IMG/VR virus record: IMGVR_UViG_3300042868_011225
Location: 1 to 64,000 of that record
Strand: one strand, 5' to 3'
DNA length: 64,000 bases
Source: a virus
Shown here: positions 3,645 through 23,463 of the stretch, one piece after another
Layout: the number at the start of each line of letters is the position of its first letter
Position numbering within the stretch: the first letter of the stretch is position 1
Program-made: the position numbers and the translations under genes
The notes under the pieces: model-generated
Told to the model about the DNA's origin: nothing
Databases searched by the model: none
What the model saw: only the letters and a program-made list of their open reading frames with translations

Positions 3645-6476
3645 ATGGCATTAACAAATAATTTAAAACCAGTATTAGACATTCCTGTATGGGAATGGTC
3701 AAGATTTGCACCAACAGTTACATCAGCACAAAGTGCACTAACAACATCGGAAGATGGTGATGATAGATATATGTATTATTTAGTTGGGTCTCTATTTTAT
3801 AGATATGACGCAATTACAGATTCATACTTACAATTATCATCACCAATCACAGCACCAAATACTGCGTTATCATTAAGGTATTCTAAATACAGTGGAAATA
3901 GAGCAAGAGTATTATCCCAAGTAAACACATCAAACTTAAAAATACCATATATTGGTGGTGGAAGCTTACTTGTTGGTAAAAATCTTGTTATTAGATATGG
4001 TTCAGGTCTTGGTCAAGAAAGAACAATAACAGCTGTTGACCCAGAGGTTGTTGAAGATTCTGGTTTATGTACTTCCGCAACAGCATTAATAATTACAGAT
4101 ACAACTAAAAGATGGAAACCAAATCAATGGGTTGGTTTTAACTGTAGGATAACTTTTTCTAGTGGTGTTCAATTACAAAGAACAATATTGTACAACACAG
4201 TTGATACCCTATATTTTTCAGATATTAACTATCAACCTTATGAATCTTTTGATAACACAGGGTTTTCAACAGCTCCAACTATTGTAGCTGGTTCTCAATC
4301 TAGTTTTTTAATCACATCACAAGTTATAACCTTAAACACACCTTTAACTGTAAGTGCTGACACAAGTTCTAAAATTATAATTCAAACAGGAACAATATGG
4401 TTAGTGTCTTCAGCTACAAGTGCACCATTTTTTACATGGCAAATGTATGATGTTGCCAACGATATTTGGATAACTAAAACAGCAAATAATGCTATTTTTC
4501 CTGCGGCTATTACTACTGATTTTGCAATAGAAAGAACAGGTGCTTATGATGGTGAATACTTAACAGGTACAACAACTTCTGCAACAACTAGAACGTTAAC
4601 CGATAATTCTAAAACAATGGTTATTGATGAGTATGTAAATTATCAAATCAGAATTAAAAGTGGAACTGGAATTGGTCAAAGATTAAGAATAGTAGCTAAT
4701 GGTTCTAATTACTTTGAGGTGGCTAAAAAATGGGATATAACCCCTGATAACACATCTACTTATGCTATTTATTCAGATACAGATTCTATTTTTTTTGCTG
4801 GAAATAGTAACTCTTCACTACTTAAATATAGTGTTGAAGCCGATTTGTGGAGTCAAGGAAACATATATGATTATGGTGTTACTTCTACCATAACGGCACG
4901 AAGAGATAAAGGTTTACCTTTTGGTATCAGTTCAGGTGTTAGAACCACAACTGGTATAACGTCTGTTGTTATCAACAACGGTGGTTCAGGTTACAGAATT
5001 GGTGATGTATTGACAGTAAGTGGTGGTGGTGGTACCAATGGTAAAGTTTATGTTGAAACTATAACATCTACAGGTGTTATAACATCAGTATCTTTAATGA
5101 GAGCTGGTGCTGGGTATTCTGTTACCACAGGTGCCGCAACAACAGGTGGTGGTGGTACTTTAGCTACTGTAAATATAGTTTCTGTTGGAGGTGTTTGTTT
5201 AATAACAACTACAATCCCACATCAATTTAAAATAGGTGAATCAGTAATTATATCAGGGTGTACAGAAGCCGCTTATAACACCACATCAACTATTGTTGGT
5301 GTAGATGGTGTATCAGCCACAGCACCAACAACTTTTGACATTGTTACAACAGCGGTAGCTAGTATGACAGCTTCAATAGCTCAATCAGTTACAGTAATAG
5401 TTGACGCTAATGCTAATTGGGATGTAAACGAACTTGTTGGTAAAACTATAGGTGTCGCAACAGTTGGGTTGGCTGGTACTTATCAATTCAGAAGAATTAC
5501 ATCTAATACTCAAACTTCAATAACATTGGGAGGAACTATAGGAACAGCTGCGGTAAACGGTACGTCTAGATATATAATAACTGAAGCTGAAGCTTTAGGT
5601 AGAGATTTACAATACCCTATAGCACAACAGAGTGCGTCTGGAGCTGTTACTAGTGGAACTACATCAACGCTTGTGGATTCATCAAAGATTTGGATTCCTG
5701 GTTCATGGACAAATAATAGAGTTAGAGTTGTTGCTGGTACAGGGCTTGGAGCGGAGTTTGTAATTACAGCAAACACAGAAACCACCCTTTCTTTCGCTAC
5801 TCAATCATTTACACCTGACACAACAACAAGATATCAGATAATGGCAGTATTTGGTATTGCTACTGGTGGTAGTACATCTACACTTATAGACACTACTAAA
5901 AACTGGAAAGTAAATCAATGGGCTGGTAAAAGAGTTAGAATTACAGGTGGTACAGGTCAATCAAATGAAATACTTATAGTAAGTAATACTACTACCACTT
6001 TAACGTTTGCTGTACAAACGTTTACACCTGACACAACTACTCAATATACCATATTAGGTATCCCACCTAGAGGTTTAGCAACAGGTTTAGTATTTGCTTA
6101 TGGTCACAATAATGGAAGGTATATATGGAGTGTCAGAGGTAGTGGAGCATCAAATATTGATAGATATGATATTGTAACAGATACATGGCAATATGGTAAT
6201 TTTATACCACCACAGTTTGAATCGTTTACTACAGGTAGTATGTACGCTTATGATGGTATTGATAGAATTTACATAAACCATAACGCCACAAACAGAATTT
6301 ATTATTTTGATATGACAACAAGAGAAATGGTTAATTCAGGTACCGTACCTTATGGTCATGGTATTGCTGTTATTGGAAACAGAATGGAAATTATAAATGG
6401 GCCTGATGGTTTAAAATTCTTATATGTTATGAGACATGCTGGAGCAGAAATGTGGAGATGTTTACTATTTTGGTAA
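3645..6476 (+). CDS. Large beta-repeat / kelch-like virion protein
   Basis: A 943-residue protein, mostly Thr, Ser, Gly and Val. At least four copies of a roughly 65-residue beta module (pattern T-x-T-L-x-D-x-(S/T)-K-x-W then R-V-R-I-x-x-G-T-G then F-T-P-D-T-T-T-x-Y) begin near residues 141, 307, 669 and 740. Two G-S-G-Y-x-x-G-D-type glycine-rich motifs lie near 448 and 487. The last 120 residues contain kelch-like phrases (N-G-R-Y-I-W-S-V-R-G, Y-D-I-V-T-D-T-W). These modules are common in phage fibre or collar proteins that contact cell-surface glycans; that role is inferred. It lies 19 nt upstream of the S74-ended fibre gene. Confidence 0.65.
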   Translation: MALTNNLKPVLDIPVWEWSRFAPTVTSAQSALTTSEDGDDRYMYYLVGSLFYRYDAITDSYLQLSSPITAPNTALSLRYSKYSGNRARVLSQVNTSNLKIPYIGGGSLLVGKNLVIRYGSGLGQERTITAVDPEVVEDSGLCTSATALIITDTTKRWKPNQWVGFNCRITFSSGVQLQRTILYNTVDTLYFSDINYQPYESFDNTGFSTAPTIVAGSQSSFLITSQVITLNTPLTVSADTSSKIIIQTGTIWLVSSATSAPFFTWQMYDVANDIWITKTANNAIFPAAITTDFAIERTGAYDGEYLTGTTTSATTRTLTDNSKTMVIDEYVNYQIRIKSGTGIGQRLRIVANGSNYFEVAKKWDITPDNTSTYAIYSDTDSIFFAGNSNSSLLKYSVEADLWSQGNIYDYGVTSTITARRDKGLPFGISSGVRTTTGITSVVINNGGSGYRIGDVLTVSGGGGTNGKVYVETITSTGVITSVSLMRAGAGYSVTTGAATTGGGGTLATVNIVSVGGVCLITTTIPHQFKIGESVIISGCTEAAYNTTSTIVGVDGVSATAPTTFDIVTTAVASMTASIAQSVTVIVDANANWDVNELVGKTIGVATVGLAGTYQFRRITSNTQTSITLGGTIGTAAVNGTSRYIITEAEALGRDLQYPIAQQSASGAVTSGTTSTLVDSSKIWIPGSWTNNRVRVVAGTGLGAEFVITANTETTLSFATQSFTPDTTTRYQIMAVFGIATGGSTSTLIDTTKNWKVNQWAGKRVRITGGTGQSNEILIVSNTTTTLTFAVQTFTPDTTTQYTILGIPPRGLATGLVFAYGHNNGRYIWSVRGSGASNIDRYDIVTDTWQYGNFIPPQFESFTTGSMYAYDGIDRIYINHNATNRIYYFDMTTREMVNSGTVPYGHGIAVIGNRMEIINGPDGLKFLYVMRHAGAEMWRCLLFW

Positions 6477-11068: not shown

Positions 11069-13921
11069 ATGTCACAAAATGTATTCGTAAGTCCTGGTGT
11101 TTATACCTCAGAAAAAGACATTTCGTTCATCACTCGTCAAGTAGGTGTAACAACTCTTGGTCTAGTAGGTGAAACAACAATTGGACCAGCTTTCCAACCG
11201 ATTTTCATCACTAACTATGGTGAATTTCAATCATTCTTTGGTGGTTTAAATGCTACCAAGGTAAAAGATACTGGTGCCCCACAATATGAGTTACCTTATA
11301 TTGCAAAATCATATTTATCTCAAGCAAATCAATTATTTGTAACTAGAATATTAGGTTTTTCTGGTTATAAGGCTGGTTTAGCATGGGGTATTGCTTTAGA
11401 TGCGAATCTAGACCCTGCTACTAGTGGTGCTACTAGTGTTGCAACAACAGCTTCAACATTATTTAATTTCACCGCAACAACAGGAGCAAATAGTGCAATA
11501 ACTACATTAACTAGTGCTGACTCAATCCTGCAAAATCTTTGGAACAAAGATTTATTAACAACTGCATTAGGTACACTTGGTACTCAAAATACTGGTTTTA
11601 CTAGTAGTGTCCCAGTATTGATGTATAAAACTGGAAATGTATTTGTAGGTGAATCATTTACCTATAATTTGGTTAATAAAGGTACTAGTGGTGGTTTTAT
11701 TACTGGTAGAACTAGTGGTGTAACTATTACTTATTCAGGTGCTTCTTATGCTGACGTTGAGAACCAAATAGTTGGTTTATTACGTTCTAGAGGAACTGTT
11801 AACCCAGCAACTCAATTACCAGCTTTTGAGGTAACAGGTTCAACACAAGTTATTTTTGACCCAGCGTTTATTGATTCAACTGAAAACCCATTAGGTGATT
11901 TTTCATTGAGTGGTAAATCAACTCTTCAAGGTAATTTTGGATATACTGTATCTTTAGATAGTACTAAAATGAATTATTTACCTAGAGTTTTAGGTAGAGG
12001 TGCTCAAGATGGTAAAACTGCTTTATTCTTAGAAGAATTTTTCCCTAACATGTTAGCTGATGCAATGAGTATGGATAAAGTAAGAGGTCTTAAACAATAC
12101 CCAATTTACTATAATGATGATTTCCAAGAATATCGTAAAGAATTCCAACCAGCTCAAACTCCATATATTGTTTCTGAGTTACGTGGTAATAAAGTATTAA
12201 GACTTTTCAGATTTATTACAATTTCTGATGGTAATGCTGCAAATGAACAATTCAAAATGTCAATTGTAAACATTAAACCAGATGCTAAAGAATTTGATGT
12301 ATTGGTTAGAGGTTTCTATGATACAGATGCTCAACCTGTTGTTTTAGAATCATTCAGCCGTTGTACAATGGACCCAACTTCAGCTAACTTTATTGGTAGA
12401 AGAATTGGTACTCTAGATGGTTTATACTCATCAAAATCAAATTATGTACTTGTTGAATTAGATGAAGAATCTGATACAAGCGAAGCGTTCCCAGCAGGTT
12501 TTGTTGGATATCCAATTAGAGATTATCAATCAAATGCTAATACTAGTGTTGTTAATCCAGTTATGACATTCAAAACTACTTATGGTGCTTTTGAAAACAA
12601 ACGTAAATTCTATTTAGGTCTTTCTGAAACTCTAGGTATTGATTCTGATTTCTTTGATTACAAAGGTCAACCTGATAACTTATCATATAGCGAATGGACT
12701 GGTTTAACATCAGGATTCCACATGGATATGGATGCCTCAGGTGTTACTATTGATGATGTTGTATTGCCATTAGGAACTGGTGGAACTTATAACCCAATCT
12801 TTACTTTCCAAACAGGTGATGCTGAGTTTAGAACAGATGCTGGTTTAATTGGTACACCATATGAAAAAATATTTGCTCGTAAATTTACATTTGCACCTTA
12901 TGGTGGATTTGATGGATGGGATATTTATAGAACCATTAGAAGTAATTCTGATTTAGATATTATCAACGGTAAAAACGGTATTGCTGGTCTTGCTGGTGGA
13001 AGTGGTCAAGGTGCATTCAAATATAGAACACTTCCAAATGGTGATTTAGGAATCAACTCTGATTACTACGCTTATTTAGAAGCAATCAACACATTCCAAA
13101 ACCCAGAAGCGGTAAACATTAACGTATTTGCTACACCTGGTATTGATACTTTTAACAACACAAACTTGGTTGAAGCTGCAATAGAAATGGTTGAACAAGA
13201 AAGAGCAGATTCACTTTATATTGTTACAACTCCAGATTATGGAAATGGTGCTGAATTGTCTGTACAAGAAGCTGTTGACATTATGGATGGTAACTTTGAT
13301 AGTAACTACACATGTACTTATTGGCCATGGATTCAAATCAATGATGCTGAAAACAATGTATTGATTTATGTTCCACCAACAAGAGATGTTGTAAGAAACA
13401 TTGCTTTAACTGACAATATTGCATTCCCATGGTTTGCAGCTGCAGGTATCCAACGTGGGGATGTTGATGCTATCAAAGCTCGTAAAAAACTTACTCTTGC
13501 TGAAAGAGATAATTTATACGAAAATAGAATCAACCCTATCGCAACATTTACTAGTGATGGTATTAAAATTTGGGGTAACAAAACTCTTCAAGTTAAAGAA
13601 TCAGCTCTTAACCGTATTAACGTTAGAAGACTTTTATTACAAGCAAGAAAACTTATTTCTGCTGTATCTATCAGACTTCTTTTCGAACAAAACGATTCAG
13701 TTGTTAGAAACCAATTCTTAGGACTTGTTAACCCAATCTTAGATAACATTAGAAGTGAAAGAGGTCTTACAGACTTTAGAGTGGTGCTTTCAAACAGCCC
13801 AGAAGACATTGATAGAAATCAATTAACTGGACAAATATTCTTGAAACCAACACGTGCTTTAGAATTTATCCAATTAGAATTTGTAATTATGAACACAGGT
13901 GCATCTTTCTCAAATATCTAA
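11069..13921 (+). CDS. Contractile tail sheath protein (T4 gp18-like)
   Basis: A 950-residue protein with the classical sheath start: S-P-G-V-Y-x-x-E-x-D near residue 8, then a G-L-V-G-E-T-x-x-G-P-A-F motif and a T-x-Y-x-E-F-x-x-F-F-G motif. The C-terminal third holds the conserved core: P-P-T-R-D-V-V near 770, F-P-W-F-A-A-A-G, N-P-I-A-T-F-x-x-x-G-I-x-I-W-G-N-K-T-L, R-I-N-V-R-R-L. The last domain ends with G-Q-I-F-L-K-P-T-R-A-L-E-F-I, typical of the sheath strand exchanged between subunits. It is longer than T4 gp18 (659 aa), the extra length lying in the middle and probably forming surface domains. CGT arginine and TTC/AAC codons are more frequent than in neighbours, as in highly expressed genes. 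A strong terminator follows. Confidence 0.96.
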   Translation: MSQNVFVSPGVYTSEKDISFITRQVGVTTLGLVGETTIGPAFQPIFITNYGEFQSFFGGLNATKVKDTGAPQYELPYIAKSYLSQANQLFVTRILGFSGYKAGLAWGIALDANLDPATSGATSVATTASTLFNFTATTGANSAITTLTSADSILQNLWNKDLLTTALGTLGTQNTGFTSSVPVLMYKTGNVFVGESFTYNLVNKGTSGGFITGRTSGVTITYSGASYADVENQIVGLLRSRGTVNPATQLPAFEVTGSTQVIFDPAFIDSTENPLGDFSLSGKSTLQGNFGYTVSLDSTKMNYLPRVLGRGAQDGKTALFLEEFFPNMLADAMSMDKVRGLKQYPIYYNDDFQEYRKEFQPAQTPYIVSELRGNKVLRLFRFITISDGNAANEQFKMSIVNIKPDAKEFDVLVRGFYDTDAQPVVLESFSRCTMDPTSANFIGRRIGTLDGLYSSKSNYVLVELDEESDTSEAFPAGFVGYPIRDYQSNANTSVVNPVMTFKTTYGAFENKRKFYLGLSETLGIDSDFFDYKGQPDNLSYSEWTGLTSGFHMDMDASGVTIDDVVLPLGTGGTYNPIFTFQTGDAEFRTDAGLIGTPYEKIFARKFTFAPYGGFDGWDIYRTIRSNSDLDIINGKNGIAGLAGGSGQGAFKYRTLPNGDLGINSDYYAYLEAINTFQNPEAVNINVFATPGIDTFNNTNLVEAAIEMVEQERADSLYIVTTPDYGNGAELSVQEAVDIMDGNFDSNYTCTYWPWIQINDAENNVLIYVPPTRDVVRNIALTDNIAFPWFAAAGIQRGDVDAIKARKKLTLAERDNLYENRINPIATFTSDGIKIWGNKTLQVKESALNRINVRRLLLQARKLISAVSIRLLFEQNDSVVRNQFLGLVNPILDNIRSERGLTDFRVVLSNSPEDIDRNQLTGQIFLKPTRALEFIQLEFVIMNTGASFSNI

Positions 13922-14001: not shown

Positions 14002-14415
14002 ATGGCAAAGTTAATTATTACCGAAAAACAATACAATGCAATACTTGAGCATGTTAAACAACTTAAGGTTTCTATAAACGAAGGTGATAACGCAATTACA
14101 ATCGATTTAGGCGTGCTTTTAGCTCTTGGAACTATCCTAGGGTTAAACATTACTGGTCATAATGAAATCAAAGCGGAAAAGGCTTTAAAAGACGTTAAAA
14201 CATTTGAGAGTATTGAAGAAATTTTATCTTCAGAAGATAAAATAAAAGAATTGATTAAATCTTTTGAGATTAAAGGAATGCCAGACCCAACAAAAAAATT
14301 ATCAGATGATAAAAGCAAACTAATTTCAAAATTTAATAAATTATCAAAAGAAAATGGTTTTGATGTTAAATTAGGTTCTAAGGCGTTGGTAAATCTGCAT
14401 CATTTAAAGAAATAA
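14002..14415 (+). CDS. Hypothetical protein with K-I-I-T-E-x-Q N-terminal motif (137 aa)
   Basis: A 137-residue protein of unknown function. It begins A-K-L-I-I-T-E-K-Q-Y, a motif shared with the starts of the genes at 14753 and 20063. Residues about 30-46 are hydrophobic (D-L-G-V-L-L-A-L-G-T-I-L-G-L), enough for one membrane or buried helix. The C-terminal half is charged and helical, rich in Lys, Glu and Asp. Its position between sheath and tube genes suggests a virion-associated or assembly protein. The last 38 nt overlap the convergent minus-strand gene at 14378-14683. Confidence 0.7.
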   Translation: MAKLIITEKQYNAILEHVKQLKVSINEGDNAITIDLGVLLALGTILGLNITGHNEIKAEKALKDVKTFESIEEILSSEDKIKELIKSFEIKGMPDPTKKLSDDKSKLISKFNKLSKENGFDVKLGSKALVNLHHLKK

Positions 14416-17405: not shown

Positions 17406-17894
17406 ATGGCTGATTTATTAATGAAAATGCCCTTACCATACGAACCTAAGAAAAAGAATCGTTGGTTAATTACATTCCCTGCCGATTTAGGTATCCAACA
17501 ATGGTGGTTATCTACAGCGTCTAGACCTTCAATTACTCAAAACGAGGTTGAAATTCAATTCCTTAATACATCTACATGGGTTTTAGGTAGATTTACATGG
17601 GAATCAATTGATGTTACATTCCGTGACCCAATCGGGCCATCTGCTACACAAGCAATTATGGAATGGGTACGTTTACACTCTGAATCTATTACAGGTCGTC
17701 AAGGTTATGCTGCTGGTTACAAACGTCCAGTAGAACTTGAAATGCTTGACCCAACTGGGGTAGTTATCGAAAAATGGTTGTTAGACGGAACAATGCTTAC
17801 TAACGTAGGTTTTGGTGATTTAGCAATGGATGACGATAGTATCGCTGAAGTTACTGCAACACTTAGATTTGACAGAGCAATCTTACTTTTCTAA
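17406..17894 (+). CDS. Tail tube protein (T4 gp19-like)
   Basis: A 162-residue protein, the same size as T4 gp19 (163 aa). It has the tube-fold pattern: a N-R-W-L-I-T-F-P strand near residue 18, S-R-P-S-I near 40, N-T-S-T-W-V-L-G-R-F near 54, the conserved W-x-S-I-D-V-T-F-R-D-P-I-G-P-S near 65-79, and L-x-D-P-T-G-V-V-I-E-K-W near 114. It stacks as hexameric rings inside the sheath. CGT supplies five of the nine arginine codons, unlike the AGA-rich neighbours, which fits strong expression. It has its own motif and terminator, so it is probably monocistronic. Confidence 0.95.
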   Translation: MADLLMKMPLPYEPKKKNRWLITFPADLGIQQWWLSTASRPSITQNEVEIQFLNTSTWVLGRFTWESIDVTFRDPIGPSATQAIMEWVRLHSESITGRQGYAAGYKRPVELEMLDPTGVVIEKWLLDGTMLTNVGFGDLAMDDDSIAEVTATLRFDRAILLF

Positions 17895-17915: not shown

Positions 17916-17946
17916 AAAACCATCTTTATAGGTGGTTTTTTTATTT
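17916..17946 (+). terminator. Rho-independent terminator after the tail tube gene
   Basis: AAAACCATC pairs with GGTGGTTTT around a TTTATA loop, then a T-run. It overlaps the ATG at 17932, which argues against that ATG being a real start. Confidence 0.9.
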
Positions 17947-18454: not shown

Positions 18455-19741
18455 ATGAGTGAAAAAAAACCAAACGTAATCCCTACAAAGGACCAAATGG
18501 CTTCGTCTAATGCTGAAAGAGCTAAAAGAGAAGCTTTTGAAGCTGAAAAAACCCAAGCAGCCAACGAAATATACATGGGACCTACAAAATTACCAGATAC
18601 ACCTATCGGACATGCCGATGCTTTAGCTGCAATGCAAGAACGTACAGCTAAACAATTGGAACAAAGCAAATTATATGGTAACGTTGTTGAACCAGATTTA
18701 GCTGAAAGTACTACAAAAATCAATATGGAATCTTCTAGAAGACGTAGCGAAGAGCAAATTGAAATTCGTGATGCTCAACTACAAAAAAATATTGAGCAAA
18801 CCAAAAACTATCAAAAATTAGCTGAAGAAGCTACTAACAGAAGATATAAAACAAATTCTTACGAAGAAAACATGACAAACAATCAAACTTACGAACAAGG
18901 TTATACGCCTCGTCCAGTGCCATCTCAGCAACCTATTGTACAACCTACTCCAGTAGCACCTACATCTAACAGTGTTAATCCTTATCTTTTAGAGATAAGC
19001 CAACCTAATTATAATTCACCTTTTGATGTTATACCTTTGCCTTCACAAGGTAAAATGTATCGAAACAAAAAACAAAATATTAGAGTTAGTTATATGACCA
19101 CAGCTGATGAGAACATTCTTAGTAGTCCTAATTTATTACAAAGCGGTGAATTCTTAAACATTCTTATGAACAGAAAAATTCTAGAACCAGAATTAAGATA
19201 TAAAGACTTGCTAGTTGGTGATAGAAATGCTATTATGATTTGGTTGAGAGCAACAGGTTATGGTGAAATGTATCCAGTAACTCTTTTAGATGAAAATGGT
19301 GACCCATTTGATACTGAGATTAACTTAAATGAACTTAAAACTATTAATTTAGGTGCAGAACCAGATGAAGAAGGATTGTTTTCATACTATTTTAAATTAT
19401 CACAAGCAGATATTAAATTTAGATTTGTTACATGTGGTGATGTTGAAGAAATAGATAAATTGGTTGAATTTGAAAAAGAAAGTGGTGTATTGGTTGATAA
19501 TTCATCAACTTATTTATTAGAAAAAATGATTGTAGAAGTTAATGGTTCTAGAGATAAAAACAACATTAAAGATTTTGTTTCATCAATTAGAATTAAAGAC
19601 GGTAAAGATTTTAACAAATATGTCGAATCAATCGAAAGTGGAATTGATTTAAATATTACTGTTGGGACCCCTGGAGGTGGTTCCGTAGATACATTTCTTC
19701 CACTTAACCTCGGATTTTTTTGGCCTGACTTCCGAGTATAA
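18455..19741 (+). CDS. T4 gp26-like baseplate hub / tail assembly protein, probable frameshift donor
   Basis: A 428-residue protein. Residues 1-150 are a charged, helical, low-complexity region, and about 155-180 is a Pro/Gln-rich linker. The core from about 190 shows the signature of the T4 gp26 baseplate family: I-P-L-P-S-Q-G-K-M-Y, M-T-T-A-D-E-N-I-L, N-L-L-Q-S-G-E, D-L-L-V-G-D-R-N-A-I-M-I-W-L-R-A-T-G-Y-G. It lies between tube and tape measure, where tail assembly chaperones are usually encoded. The zero-frame product ends G-F-F-W-P-D-F-R-V after a run of seven T (19715-19721). Slipping +1 (or -2) there continues into the 19749 frame and gives about 513 residues. Confidence 0.8.
   Translation: MSEKKPNVIPTKDQMASSNAERAKREAFEAEKTQAANEIYMGPTKLPDTPIGHADALAAMQERTAKQLEQSKLYGNVVEPDLAESTTKINMESSRRRSEEQIEIRDAQLQKNIEQTKNYQKLAEEATNRRYKTNSYEENMTNNQTYEQGYTPRPVPSQQPIVQPTPVAPTSNSVNPYLLEISQPNYNSPFDVIPLPSQGKMYRNKKQNIRVSYMTTADENILSSPNLLQSGEFLNILMNRKILEPELRYKDLLVGDRNAIMIWLRATGYGEMYPVTLLDENGDPFDTEINLNELKTINLGAEPDEEGLFSYYFKLSQADIKFRFVTCGDVEEIDKLVEFEKESGVLVDNSSTYLLEKMIVEVNGSRDKNNIKDFVSSIRIKDGKDFNKYVESIESGIDLNITVGTPGGGSVDTFLPLNLGFFWPDFRV
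19715..19721 (+). other. Candidate +1/-2 frameshift site (T7 run)
   Basis: Seven T follow GGA near the 3' end of the gp26-like gene. Reading GGA TTT TTT then GGC moves into the downstream frame, which is open from 19689 to 19997. Ribosomal slippage, polymerase slippage or a homopolymer sequencing error would all look the same here. Confidence 0.55.
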
Positions 19742-19748
19742 AGCACCC

Positions 19749-19997
19749 TTGTTGGAGGAAATATATATTTGTACCCAACACATGGATGGTTTTACTTATT
19801 CAGATGTTTTAGCGTTGCCTGTTTATGAAAGAAGATTTTTCTTAAGTCTTAAAGCTAGGGACGTTAGTAAACAAAAAGAACACCAAGAAGAACAAACAAA
19901 AACATTAAAATCAAATTCTAAAGGCAATCGCAGTTCAACCGTAAGTGGTGATGCTTTAAAGAATAGAATGAAAAATGGGGATATTCCATTAAATTAA
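19749..19997 (+). CDS. Frameshift extension of the gp26-like protein (or separate small protein)
   Basis: The frame has no ATG until 19782; 19749 is a TTG. However, it is open back to 19689, across the T7 run inside the upstream gene. Joined there, the protein reads G-F-F-G-L-T-S-E-Y-K-A-P-L-L-E-E-I-Y, then G-F-T-Y-S-D-V-L and L-P-V-Y-E-R-R-F-F-L, which looks like coherent protein before 19749 as well. It ends in a charged, disordered Lys/Gln/Ser-rich tail. The layout matches programmed-frameshift tail assembly chaperone pairs just upstream of a tape measure gene. If independent, it would be an 82-residue protein starting at TTG; a T4 gp51-like hub assembly role is another possibility. Confidence 0.7.
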   Translation: MLEEIYICTQHMDGFTYSDVLALPVYERRFFLSLKARDVSKQKEHQEEQTKTLKSNSKGNRSSTVSGDALKNRMKNGDIPLN

Positions 19998-21078: not shown

Positions 21079-23463
21079 ATGTCAAGTTTAAGTGATTTAA
21101 AAGAAGAAGCTAAATTAAGGGCTGAAATATCAGCCTCTTTAGATGGTTATTTATCAGGTGTTGAAAAATTAAAAACTCTTCAAAAAACAATAAAAGATAC
21201 TGATAAGTATATTCTAGAGTTAGAAAACCAAAAAATTGGTGCTAATGCCGCACAAATCGCACAATTAGACACACAAATTAATTATCTTAAAGACCAAACC
21301 GTTGAATACGAAAGACAAGTAAAAATGTTGAAATTAGCCGTTAAAGAAGCTAATAAGTATCAAATGGCGTTAATTGCAACAGGTAAAGCTGGTATTAATG
21401 GTTTAGCAAAGTTACCTGGTTTAGTACAACAAAATTGGGGTAAACTAAAAGGTTTTGGTTTATTTGAAATGGAGAAAGCTGTTAAAAAATCAGCTCTTCA
21501 AATGGGTCTTTTGGGTAAAGAAGGTGAAGCTTATTCTTTATCTATTAGAAATACAGCCGCTAGTACAAATGAAATTGGTGTTGGTATTGAGGCTTTGGCT
21601 CAAATGCAAGGTCAATATGCCGAGGATTTAGGTAGAACAGTTATGCTTGGTGACAAAGGTCTTAAAGCTATGGCAGCAATGTCTATGGCCACTGGTTTAG
21701 GAGCTGAAGGTGCTGGTGAATTAGCTGCTAACATGGAAGAAGTTGGTTTTTCAGCAGAACGTACTGGTGATTATATTGGACAAACTATGAATGATGCACA
21801 TTCAATGGGTATTAACGCTTCTAAGGTTGTTAAAAATATTTCTGGTGGTATAAAAATGCTTAATAAATATCGTTTTAAAGACGGTATTAAAGGGTTGGCT
21901 AAAATGGCCGAATTATCAGCTAAATTAGGTATTAAAATGGATTTTGCTGCTCAAATGAGTGATAAACTTTTTGATATTGAAGGTGCTGTTGATATGTCAG
22001 CTCAATTACAAGTTATGGGTGGTGCTTGGGCAAAGATGGCTGACCCTTTTCATTTAATGTACATGGCTCGTGAAGACATGGTTGGTTTAACAAAAGAAAT
22101 TGCAGAAGCATCTCAAGCTTCTATGCATTTTGCTAAAGACGGTAGTATTGAAATGTCTAGTTTGGAAATGTCTAGACTTAAAATAATTGCACAACAAACA
22201 GGTCTTGAATACGATGATTTAGTAAAATCAGGTAAGGAATTGTTTAAAATGAATAAGGTTAAAAGTCAAATTGCTTTTGGTGTTCCAGAAGATATGAAAG
22301 AATTTATCGCAAACACAGCACAATTAGATAAAAATGGTAAAGCAACTATTGAAATTAATGGTAGTCCTAAATTAGTTAGTCAAATAACCGAAGGTGACCG
22401 AGATTTTATAAAAAGACAAGTTAGCGAGAAAAAATCAATGGAAGAAAGAGCAAAAGCTGCTCAAAATTTTGATGACCAAATTGTAAATCTTATAAATCAA
22501 GTTAAAACATATATGTTACCAATTATTGATGGTATTAATCAAACTCTTGGCCCTATTGTTACTGACTTTATGAAGGACCCAAATTGGAAGGCTGATTTAA
22601 TGTCTTTAGGTAAAGATATTGGTGAATTTATAAAAGGATTAAAACCTATTTTTACAACTATTGGTAATTTAATATTGGCTCTTGGCCCTAAAGGAACACT
22701 TGCTGTTTTATTTGGTGGTAAATTCTTATTAGATGCAGGAAAATGGCTTTTAAATGGTGTTGCTTTAGGAAAAGGATTTTTAGCAACAACCAGTGGTGCT
22801 CAAGCAGCAACTGGTTTAGCTGGTAAATTAGGTGGTGGTGTAAAAGGAGCGGTAGGTGCTGCTGGTATTTATGGTGCTGCTGGATATGGTGTTGGAATGC
22901 TTACAGAGTATGGTTCACAAAAAGCTAAAGATGCTGGAAATGAAGATTTAGGTAAAGGTATTGGTGTTTTAGGAAAATCAGCTGAATATGCACTATATGG
23001 TGCCGCAATTGGTAGTTTAGTACCAGTGTTAGGAACTACTATTGGAGCAATAGCTGGTGGGATAATTGGTGCTGGTAAAGGGTTATATGACCAATATAGC
23101 ACACCGCCAGTACAAGGACAACCGATACAAGATGGTTTCTTTCCTAAACCTAAAAATCCTATGTATTCTAAAGGTAGACAAATTGTCCAAGGCAACGTTG
23201 CGACACCAATAACTAATAAAGATATGTTTGTTGGTCAACCTGGTGGTGCAATTGCTCAAGCTAATAAAGCAAATCAAAATGCTAACATACCAGCAACTAT
23301 AAATCATACATTTGAACCTCTTGAAATAAAAGGTAATTTAATGGTAACAACACCAGGTAATCCTGGTCAAGCTGTTAATTTATTAAAAGATGCACATTTT
23401 ATAAGACAAATTACAAGTTTAATACATAGTGAAACTAAAAGAATGATGAATCAAAAAACATAA
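21079..23463 (+). CDS. Tail tape measure-like protein (794 aa)
   Basis: A long helical protein. Residues 1-100 are coiled coil (E-K-L-K-T-L-Q-K-T-I-K-D-T-D, Y-L-K-D-Q-T-V-E-Y-E-R-Q-V). A long Ala/Gly/Met-rich helical body follows (M-A-A-M-S-M-A-T-G-L-G-A-E-G-A-G-E-L). Residues about 520-570 and 590-675 are Gly/Ala-rich hydrophobic segments (L-G-T-T-I-G-A-I-A-G-G-I-I-G-A-G), as expected of a protein that lines the tube and enters the host membrane. Tape measure length sets tail length; at roughly 1.5 A per residue this body would suit a tail near 100 nm, a rough inference. It lies after the tube and frameshift genes and before the hub genes, the standard order. Confidence 0.85.
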   Translation: MSSLSDLKEEAKLRAEISASLDGYLSGVEKLKTLQKTIKDTDKYILELENQKIGANAAQIAQLDTQINYLKDQTVEYERQVKMLKLAVKEANKYQMALIATGKAGINGLAKLPGLVQQNWGKLKGFGLFEMEKAVKKSALQMGLLGKEGEAYSLSIRNTAASTNEIGVGIEALAQMQGQYAEDLGRTVMLGDKGLKAMAAMSMATGLGAEGAGELAANMEEVGFSAERTGDYIGQTMNDAHSMGINASKVVKNISGGIKMLNKYRFKDGIKGLAKMAELSAKLGIKMDFAAQMSDKLFDIEGAVDMSAQLQVMGGAWAKMADPFHLMYMAREDMVGLTKEIAEASQASMHFAKDGSIEMSSLEMSRLKIIAQQTGLEYDDLVKSGKELFKMNKVKSQIAFGVPEDMKEFIANTAQLDKNGKATIEINGSPKLVSQITEGDRDFIKRQVSEKKSMEERAKAAQNFDDQIVNLINQVKTYMLPIIDGINQTLGPIVTDFMKDPNWKADLMSLGKDIGEFIKGLKPIFTTIGNLILALGPKGTLAVLFGGKFLLDAGKWLLNGVALGKGFLATTSGAQAATGLAGKLGGGVKGAVGAAGIYGAAGYGVGMLTEYGSQKAKDAGNEDLGKGIGVLGKSAEYALYGAAIGSLVPVLGTTIGAIAGGIIGAGKGLYDQYSTPPVQGQPIQDGFFPKPKNPMYSKGRQIVQGNVATPITNKDMFVGQPGGAIAQANKANQNANIPATINHTFEPLEIKGNLMVTTPGNPGQAVNLLKDAHFIRQITSLIHSETKRMMNQKT

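Follow-up and report, generated by a model that had tools for sequence, protein, structure and literature searches.

A gp26-like gene and an overlapping downstream frame

The window analyzed here is the whole stretch of 64,000 nt spanning positions 1-64,000 of the IMG/VR virus record IMGVR_UViG_3300042868_011225. Its gp26-like ORF (18455-19741) ends in ...LGFFWPDFRV*, and close to that end lie seven consecutive Ts (T7; 19715-19721) within the codons TTT_TTT_TGG (Table 1). A +1 frame overlaps this region, open from 19689 to a stop codon at 19995-19997, and +1 read-through of the gp26-like ORF would yield a product of 513 aa. The tail sheath (11069-13921) and tail tube (17406-17894; phrog_4542, 7e-26) are encoded upstream; downstream of the junction come a 337-aa ORF and, at 21079, a 794-aa tape-measure candidate assigned from its position and size, its profile match being weak. 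The gene pair is thus located between tail tube and candidate tape measure, as are the overlapping frames of lambda G/GT and of other long-tailed phages, which give a short and a C-terminally extended product.

Three plus-strand ORFs in the window, at 14002, 14753 and 20063, share the N-terminal tag K-x-I-I-[IL]-T-E-x-Q-[YH] (MAKLIITEKQY, MAKKIILTEQQH and MKKKIIITEAQY), and the ORF at 17932 has a similar LTEQRY. The shared tag is possibly a virion-targeting tag.

Table 1. Features at the gp26-like locus, in coordinates of the window
Feature	Position	Strand	Basis or remarks
0-frame product, 428 aa	18455..19741	+	gp26-like short chaperone form (TAC-N); phrog_150 baseplate hub, 1.4e-08
T4_baseplate (gp26) domain	19073..19675, approximate	+	PF12322 match to the fragment from 18983 on, at residues 31-231
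Predicted RNA hairpin GGGACCCC-UGGA-GG-U-GGUUCC	19664..19684	+	MFE fold of the window
Shine-Dalgarno-like GGAGG, 37 nt before T7	19673..19677	+	GGAGG enrichment
Invariant TTTCTTCC of the window's clade	19694..19701	+	52/52 sequences; Leu always CTT vs 15% usage
Putative slip site TTT_TTT_TGG	19715..19723	+	76/77 and 85/85 protein-found loci; natural variants keep UUU_Y
+1-frame C-terminal domain (TAC-C, gp51-like), stop included	19722..19997	+	Conservation, DUF6760-like, profile match
Conserved 3' context GGCCTGAC (GGCCTRAC)	19722..19729	+	Near-invariant in 52 clade sequences; GGCCT in 85/85 further protein-found loci
0-frame stop TAA, close 3' of slip site	19739..19741	+	Stop within 5-12 codons, 186/186 sites

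Domain composition of the two products

Both domains of the locus can be compared with the gp26 and gp51 proteins of T4-like phages: the N-domain matches T4_baseplate/gp26 and phrog_150, and the C-domain has a possible resemblance to the C-terminus of gp51. A fragment of the fusion matches T4_baseplate (PF12322) at 1.8e-06 and 28.2 bits, above the cut-off of 24.5, as do 26 of 37 members at E 0.05; the full 0-frame protein alone returned no PF12322 match. The alignment to phrog_150 reaches profile position 279 of 282 with the fusion and only 216 with the 0-frame product. Ahead of the T4_baseplate domain, the gp26-like protein is extended at its N-terminus by about 175 residues (18455-18980).

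Of 56 members, 31 have a DUF6760-like C-domain (best 1.7e-05). The profile probability of the C-domain against distant TAC-C regions is 99.2%, for a mixed set in which some phages share the +1 arrangement; against the gp51 C-terminus of T4 and T4-like sequences only, hhalign gives 83.8% over 35 columns. The two halves of the fusion were folded separately, each in its ordinary frame, and in BFVD the model of the N-domain (pLDDT 90.7) finds its matches among baseplate hub proteins of the T4 type. Searching solved structures by sequence produced no significant match, and a PDB fold search had none below E 0.001, with the HK97 tail chaperone (2ob9) at E 2.2 only. In T4 itself, genes 26 and 51 are divergent, unlike the putative fusion of the window, and gp26 ends in EFFELL.

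Conservation of the junction

Using the 428-aa protein alone as query, we retrieved 80 loci, 3 of which end before the junction. Of the 77 that reach it, 76 have TTTTTTTGGCC in the same codons, and their open +1 frame continues G-L-T or nearly so. Two other clades were searched with the upstream halves of their proteins, so that the site itself was not in the query, and TTTTTTTGGCCT was read directly in 84 of 85 rows and, once a small offset was allowed for, in the remaining one. In the window's clade (76/77) and these two (85/85), loci with TTTTTTTGGCCT reach a 0-frame stop within 5-12 codons, and their +1 frame stays open. The sole exception, locus L033, keeps T7 and the frame offset with a shortened 3' context; at its positions 6200-6400 TTTTTTTGC replaces TTTTTTTGGCC and a further frame break follows downstream; either the site has diverged or the assembly is of low quality. 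The identical sequence is also present in two other metagenome assemblies.

Across 52 dereplicated sequences of the clade, T7, GGCCT and the upstream TTTCTTCC are invariant. Among 46 clade sequences, the fastest-varying codon position upstream is position 3 of the 0 frame (0.52), and from +15 on, ahead of the 0-frame stop, it is position 3 of the +1 frame (0.67). The change of frame in the substitution pattern thus coincides with T7. The same 46 sequences contain no conserved +1-frame start codon, the best column having ATG, GTG or TTG in 16/46, about 29 codons in. Conservation of the +1 domain extends through its C-terminus (37 aligned fusions). The earlier note had read the T7 run as a probable frameshift from the gp26-like gene into a downstream frame, starting at 19749, that lacks a nearby ATG and is open back to 19689; both points are borne out, the former strongly, and the alignment of homologous loci that it proposed shows the +1 offset to be conserved.

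At least 119 further IMG/VR loci carry TTTTTTTGGCCTNAC, and 112 of 119 among the matches listed are this junction. A pattern scan of genome contigs gave 27 matches, none of them this junction, and a second viral-contig pattern incorporating the CTTCC spacing of the clade yielded 0 true junctions among 95 new loci. In all, 271 sites were compared (186 after dereplication); 108 of the 186 (group C) come from the motif scan, and in these the conservation of the core is by construction. The 20 residues preceding T7 have a mean identity of 24% across the compared sites. Rhodothermus phage RM378 (L304:2650-2880) has TTT_TTT_TGG, and the +1 continuation there is listed in the phage's record as a hypothetical protein in its own right.

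Judged by these sequence comparisons, the frame offset at T7GGCCT recurs far more regularly than chance would allow and represents recoding in many phages rather than an error of sequencing. Homopolymers are error-prone, and the earlier note had raised an assembly error in the T run; the same offset in hundreds of independent loci, isolates included, contradicts this and leaves it a negligible chance.

Slip-site variants and competing explanations

Natural variation at the site bears on how the frame is changed. The clade of Flavobacterium phage immuto has TTT_TTT_TGG_CCT (46 sites), TTT_CTT_TGG_CCT (29), TTT_CTA_TGG_CCT (3) and TTT_CTT_TAC_CCT (1), and another clade has TTC_TTT_TGG_CCT (14). 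The variants TTT_CTT_TGG, TTT_CTA_TGG, TTC_TTT_TGG and TTT_CTT_TAC all retain both UUU_Y and the +1 continuation. Further variants were taken from isolates and one jumbo-phage record: TTT_TTT_TGG in Microcystis Mel-JY01 and RM378, TTT_CTT_TGG in immuto itself, TTT_CTA_TTC in LR756508, TTC_TTT_CGT in Streptococcus GXN1 and TTT_TTT_CAC in SP-15, each again with UUU_Y and the +1 continuation kept. LIS04 has TTT_TTT_AGT, where re-pairing is perfect at the first codon only, which counts against the +1 reading. UUU followed by U or C is nonetheless present in every variant listed. Since several variants lack T7 and are unfit for a -2 shift (TTC_TTT_TGG, TTT_CTA_TGG, TTC_TTT_CGT), they favor a ribosome that slips +1 on UUU_Y. 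The base before T7 is T in only 1 of 186 sites, though NNT codons outnumber NNC codons in these genes; because T8 is avoided against this background, a run of exactly seven Ts appears to be selected.

A -2 ribosomal frameshift, documented in phage Mu (PMC5009743), would lead to the same frame with one extra Phe. In T7 members the six Ts would let tRNA-Phe move back by two bases and pair again, and the preference for TTT as first codon would be explained, but TTC_TTT_TGG, TTT_CTT_TGG, TTT_CTA_TGG, TTC_TTT_CGT and TTT_CTA_TTC bar good -2 re-pairing of the P-site tRNA and yet keep the frame. The likeness to Mu is therefore one of net frame, and we regard a -2 shift as improbable. Of the +1 or -2 event suggested in the earlier note, it is the +1 half that stands, on UUU_Y.

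The polymerase slippage that the note offered as an alternative fares no better. Slippage on homopolymer runs is a known route to two products, and here RNA polymerase would make transcripts one U short or two U longer that are then translated normally. The homopolymer is conserved, as such a process requires, but homologues with only three or four Ts keep the offset, and longer runs, which should slip better and be tolerated, are the ones avoided (T8 in 1/186). The nearby GGAGG and upstream structure described below likewise point to the ribosome, making transcriptional slippage very improbable.

Alternatively, the C-terminal frame could be a separate gene with its own start, as it is in some relatives: an ATG lies near or overlaps the stop in L518, L522, Pseudomonas Cygsa01 and LR756511. 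L518 (TTC_TTG_TAT) and L522 (TTC_CTT_TGG), both without UUU_Y, encode the C-domain in the -1 frame, where an ATG of its own precedes it; in Cygsa01 and LR756511 the ATG overlaps or adjoins the stop. Separate genes, which the earlier note considered for homologues generally, thus exist outside the window's clade, but within it no +1-frame start codon is conserved and conservation of the +1 frame already begins with the base that follows T7, ahead of any start, so that this explanation has scarcely any probability there.

Upstream GGAGG and RNA structure

GGAGG occurs within 60 nt upstream of T7 in 132 of 186 dereplicated sites, as compared with 0-3 of 186 in four control windows, and is absent from the other 54. 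The distance from its end to T7 is mostly 17, 23, 26 or 37 nt, depending on the clade. Both this absence and its distance of 17-37 nt from the slip site, greater than for known stimulators, count against the +1 reading.

In predicted folds, CTTCC within the invariant TTTCTTCC can pair with the GGAGG of the window as an outer stem. This pairing is predicted in many clade members, in which the invariant sequence allows no covariation. From sequence only, we also considered a candidate stem between TTTCTTCC and the downstream GGAGGAAA.

Folding was compared with synonymous-codon shuffles that hold the protein fixed. In the window's clade the excess of structure lies at -69..-12 (z -7 to -8, or -5.2 when GC-matched), and in sites of other clades it lies at -27..0 (z -15.6, or -7.8 when GC-matched). 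These values overstate significance because related sequences are treated as independent; farther upstream the excess is about zero. The pairing register differs between clades. When pairs were counted in a fixed register, cells changed on both sides numbered 35 vs 19.6 +- 5.4, but the paired fraction equaled that of the shuffles and a second class gave no support; the compensatory signal is weak, which counts against the +1 reading. With the hairpins of the predicted folds looped out, the gap between GGAGG and the slip site falls to 2-5 nt for 21 of the 22 sites in the 17-nt class; other classes are mixed, and 14 of 35 sites of the 37-nt class stay at 21 nt.

Two further candidates were rejected. 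A hairpin closing around T7 (CTCGGA/TCCGAG) is found in the window but is absent from most relatives, and an earlier shift at CTTCC conflicts with the conservation, in deeper clades, of the 0-frame residues between CTTCC and T7.

A putative +1 frameshift in a T4-type tail assembly chaperone

The comparison reveals, at the level of sequence and predicted folds, a conserved slip site, two conserved frames, a nearby 0-frame stop, an upstream GGAGG and upstream RNA structure. We consider it probable (approximately 0.88) that the junction is a programmed +1 ribosomal frameshift yielding a short and a long tail assembly chaperone of the T4 gp26/gp51 type, and the proposal of the earlier note that the pair, positioned between tail tube and tape-measure candidate, encodes tail assembly chaperones is strongly supported. 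Most ribosomes would translate TTT_TTT_TGG_CCT in the 0 frame and terminate a few codons on, releasing the short gp26-like chaperone. In a fraction of them, tRNA-Phe on UUU before U or C would slip one base forward (UUU_Y to UUY), and translation would continue in the +1 frame to add a C-terminal domain of about 90 residues resembling the end of T4 gp51. Both products would be made, as the short and long chaperones. GGAGG may pair with 16S rRNA, and a hairpin between it and the slip site may shorten the effective spacing and push the ribosome forward, comparable to the close Shine-Dalgarno sequence of prfB. The ratio of the two products is inferred, as are the parts played by GGAGG, the hairpin and GGCCTRAC.

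The prfB frameshift resembles the one proposed here: a tRNA in the P site moves forward by one base, a Shine-Dalgarno-like sequence upstream acts as stimulator, and some members here share its CUU_U. It differs in having a stop codon in the A site, where TGG stands here, and a Shine-Dalgarno sequence a few nucleotides before the shift codon, where GGAGG lies 17-37 nt off (37 nt in the window) with RNA structure between or around. The lambda type, for its part, is a -1 shift on an XXXYYYZ heptamer, in place of which we find a +1 offset on UUU_Y. As known exceptions use +1 or -2, this offset lowers the case for a lambda-type event and not for a tail chaperone frameshift. The chaperone frameshift has been described as widely conserved "except T4", HSTV-2 being likely to use +1 and Mu using -2 (PMC5009743), and a +1 chaperone frameshift is reported for Bacillus phage Moonbeam (PMC4299906). 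Moonbeam and HSTV-2 are genome-announcement or predicted cases and are compared here by their +1 direction alone.

The gene of the window belongs to the T4 gp26 family and yet shows a frameshift signature. For T4-like tail chaperones, the title of Vladimirov, Gautam and Davidson 2022 (PMID 34826709) argues for a non-frameshift mechanism; that paper may contain related observations, and papers citing it report poly-T -1 signals in T4-like chaperone genes and, for some T4-like phages, separate genes for the short and the fused form. Elsewhere in this family, cyanophages S-CAM8, S-RIM8 and DSL-LC02 have a -1 continuation at T_TTT_TTC, which in cyanophage gp26 is likely a -1 frameshift, and XacN1 also continues in -1. 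At the cyanophage gp26 ends that continue in -1 at T_TTT_TTC (L423, L424 and L425), the downstream domain is annotated as a separate small protein or left unannotated.

Frameshifts in chaperone genes, +1 ones among them, have precedents. What appears to be new is the ultraconserved signal with its architecture, and no earlier description of the motif was found in the literature searched, which misses most subscription journals. More tentatively, and with the odds somewhat against it, hundreds of contractile-tailed phages may share a new +1 recoding signal in which a hairpin, folding in the interval from a Shine-Dalgarno-like element to the slip site, reduces the effective distance and drives tRNA-Phe forward on UUU_Y, with the ultraconserved GGCCTRAC coming next. 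If true, a hairpin combined with a Shine-Dalgarno stimulator would be a new way of driving +1 shifting.

T4-type chaperones have been described as lacking the frameshift shared by other long-tailed phages, and the gp26-type gene here appears to use a +1 shift, as it does across a very large number of environmental phages. Their downstream domain frequently lacks an annotation or is entered as a protein of its own, and the motif TTTTTTTGGCCTRAC offers a simple annotation marker for it. Together, the series of slip sites, in which UUU_Y is kept or the domain stands in its own gene, and the switches between +1, -1 and separate genes from clade to clade would make the evolution of recoding testable in this family.
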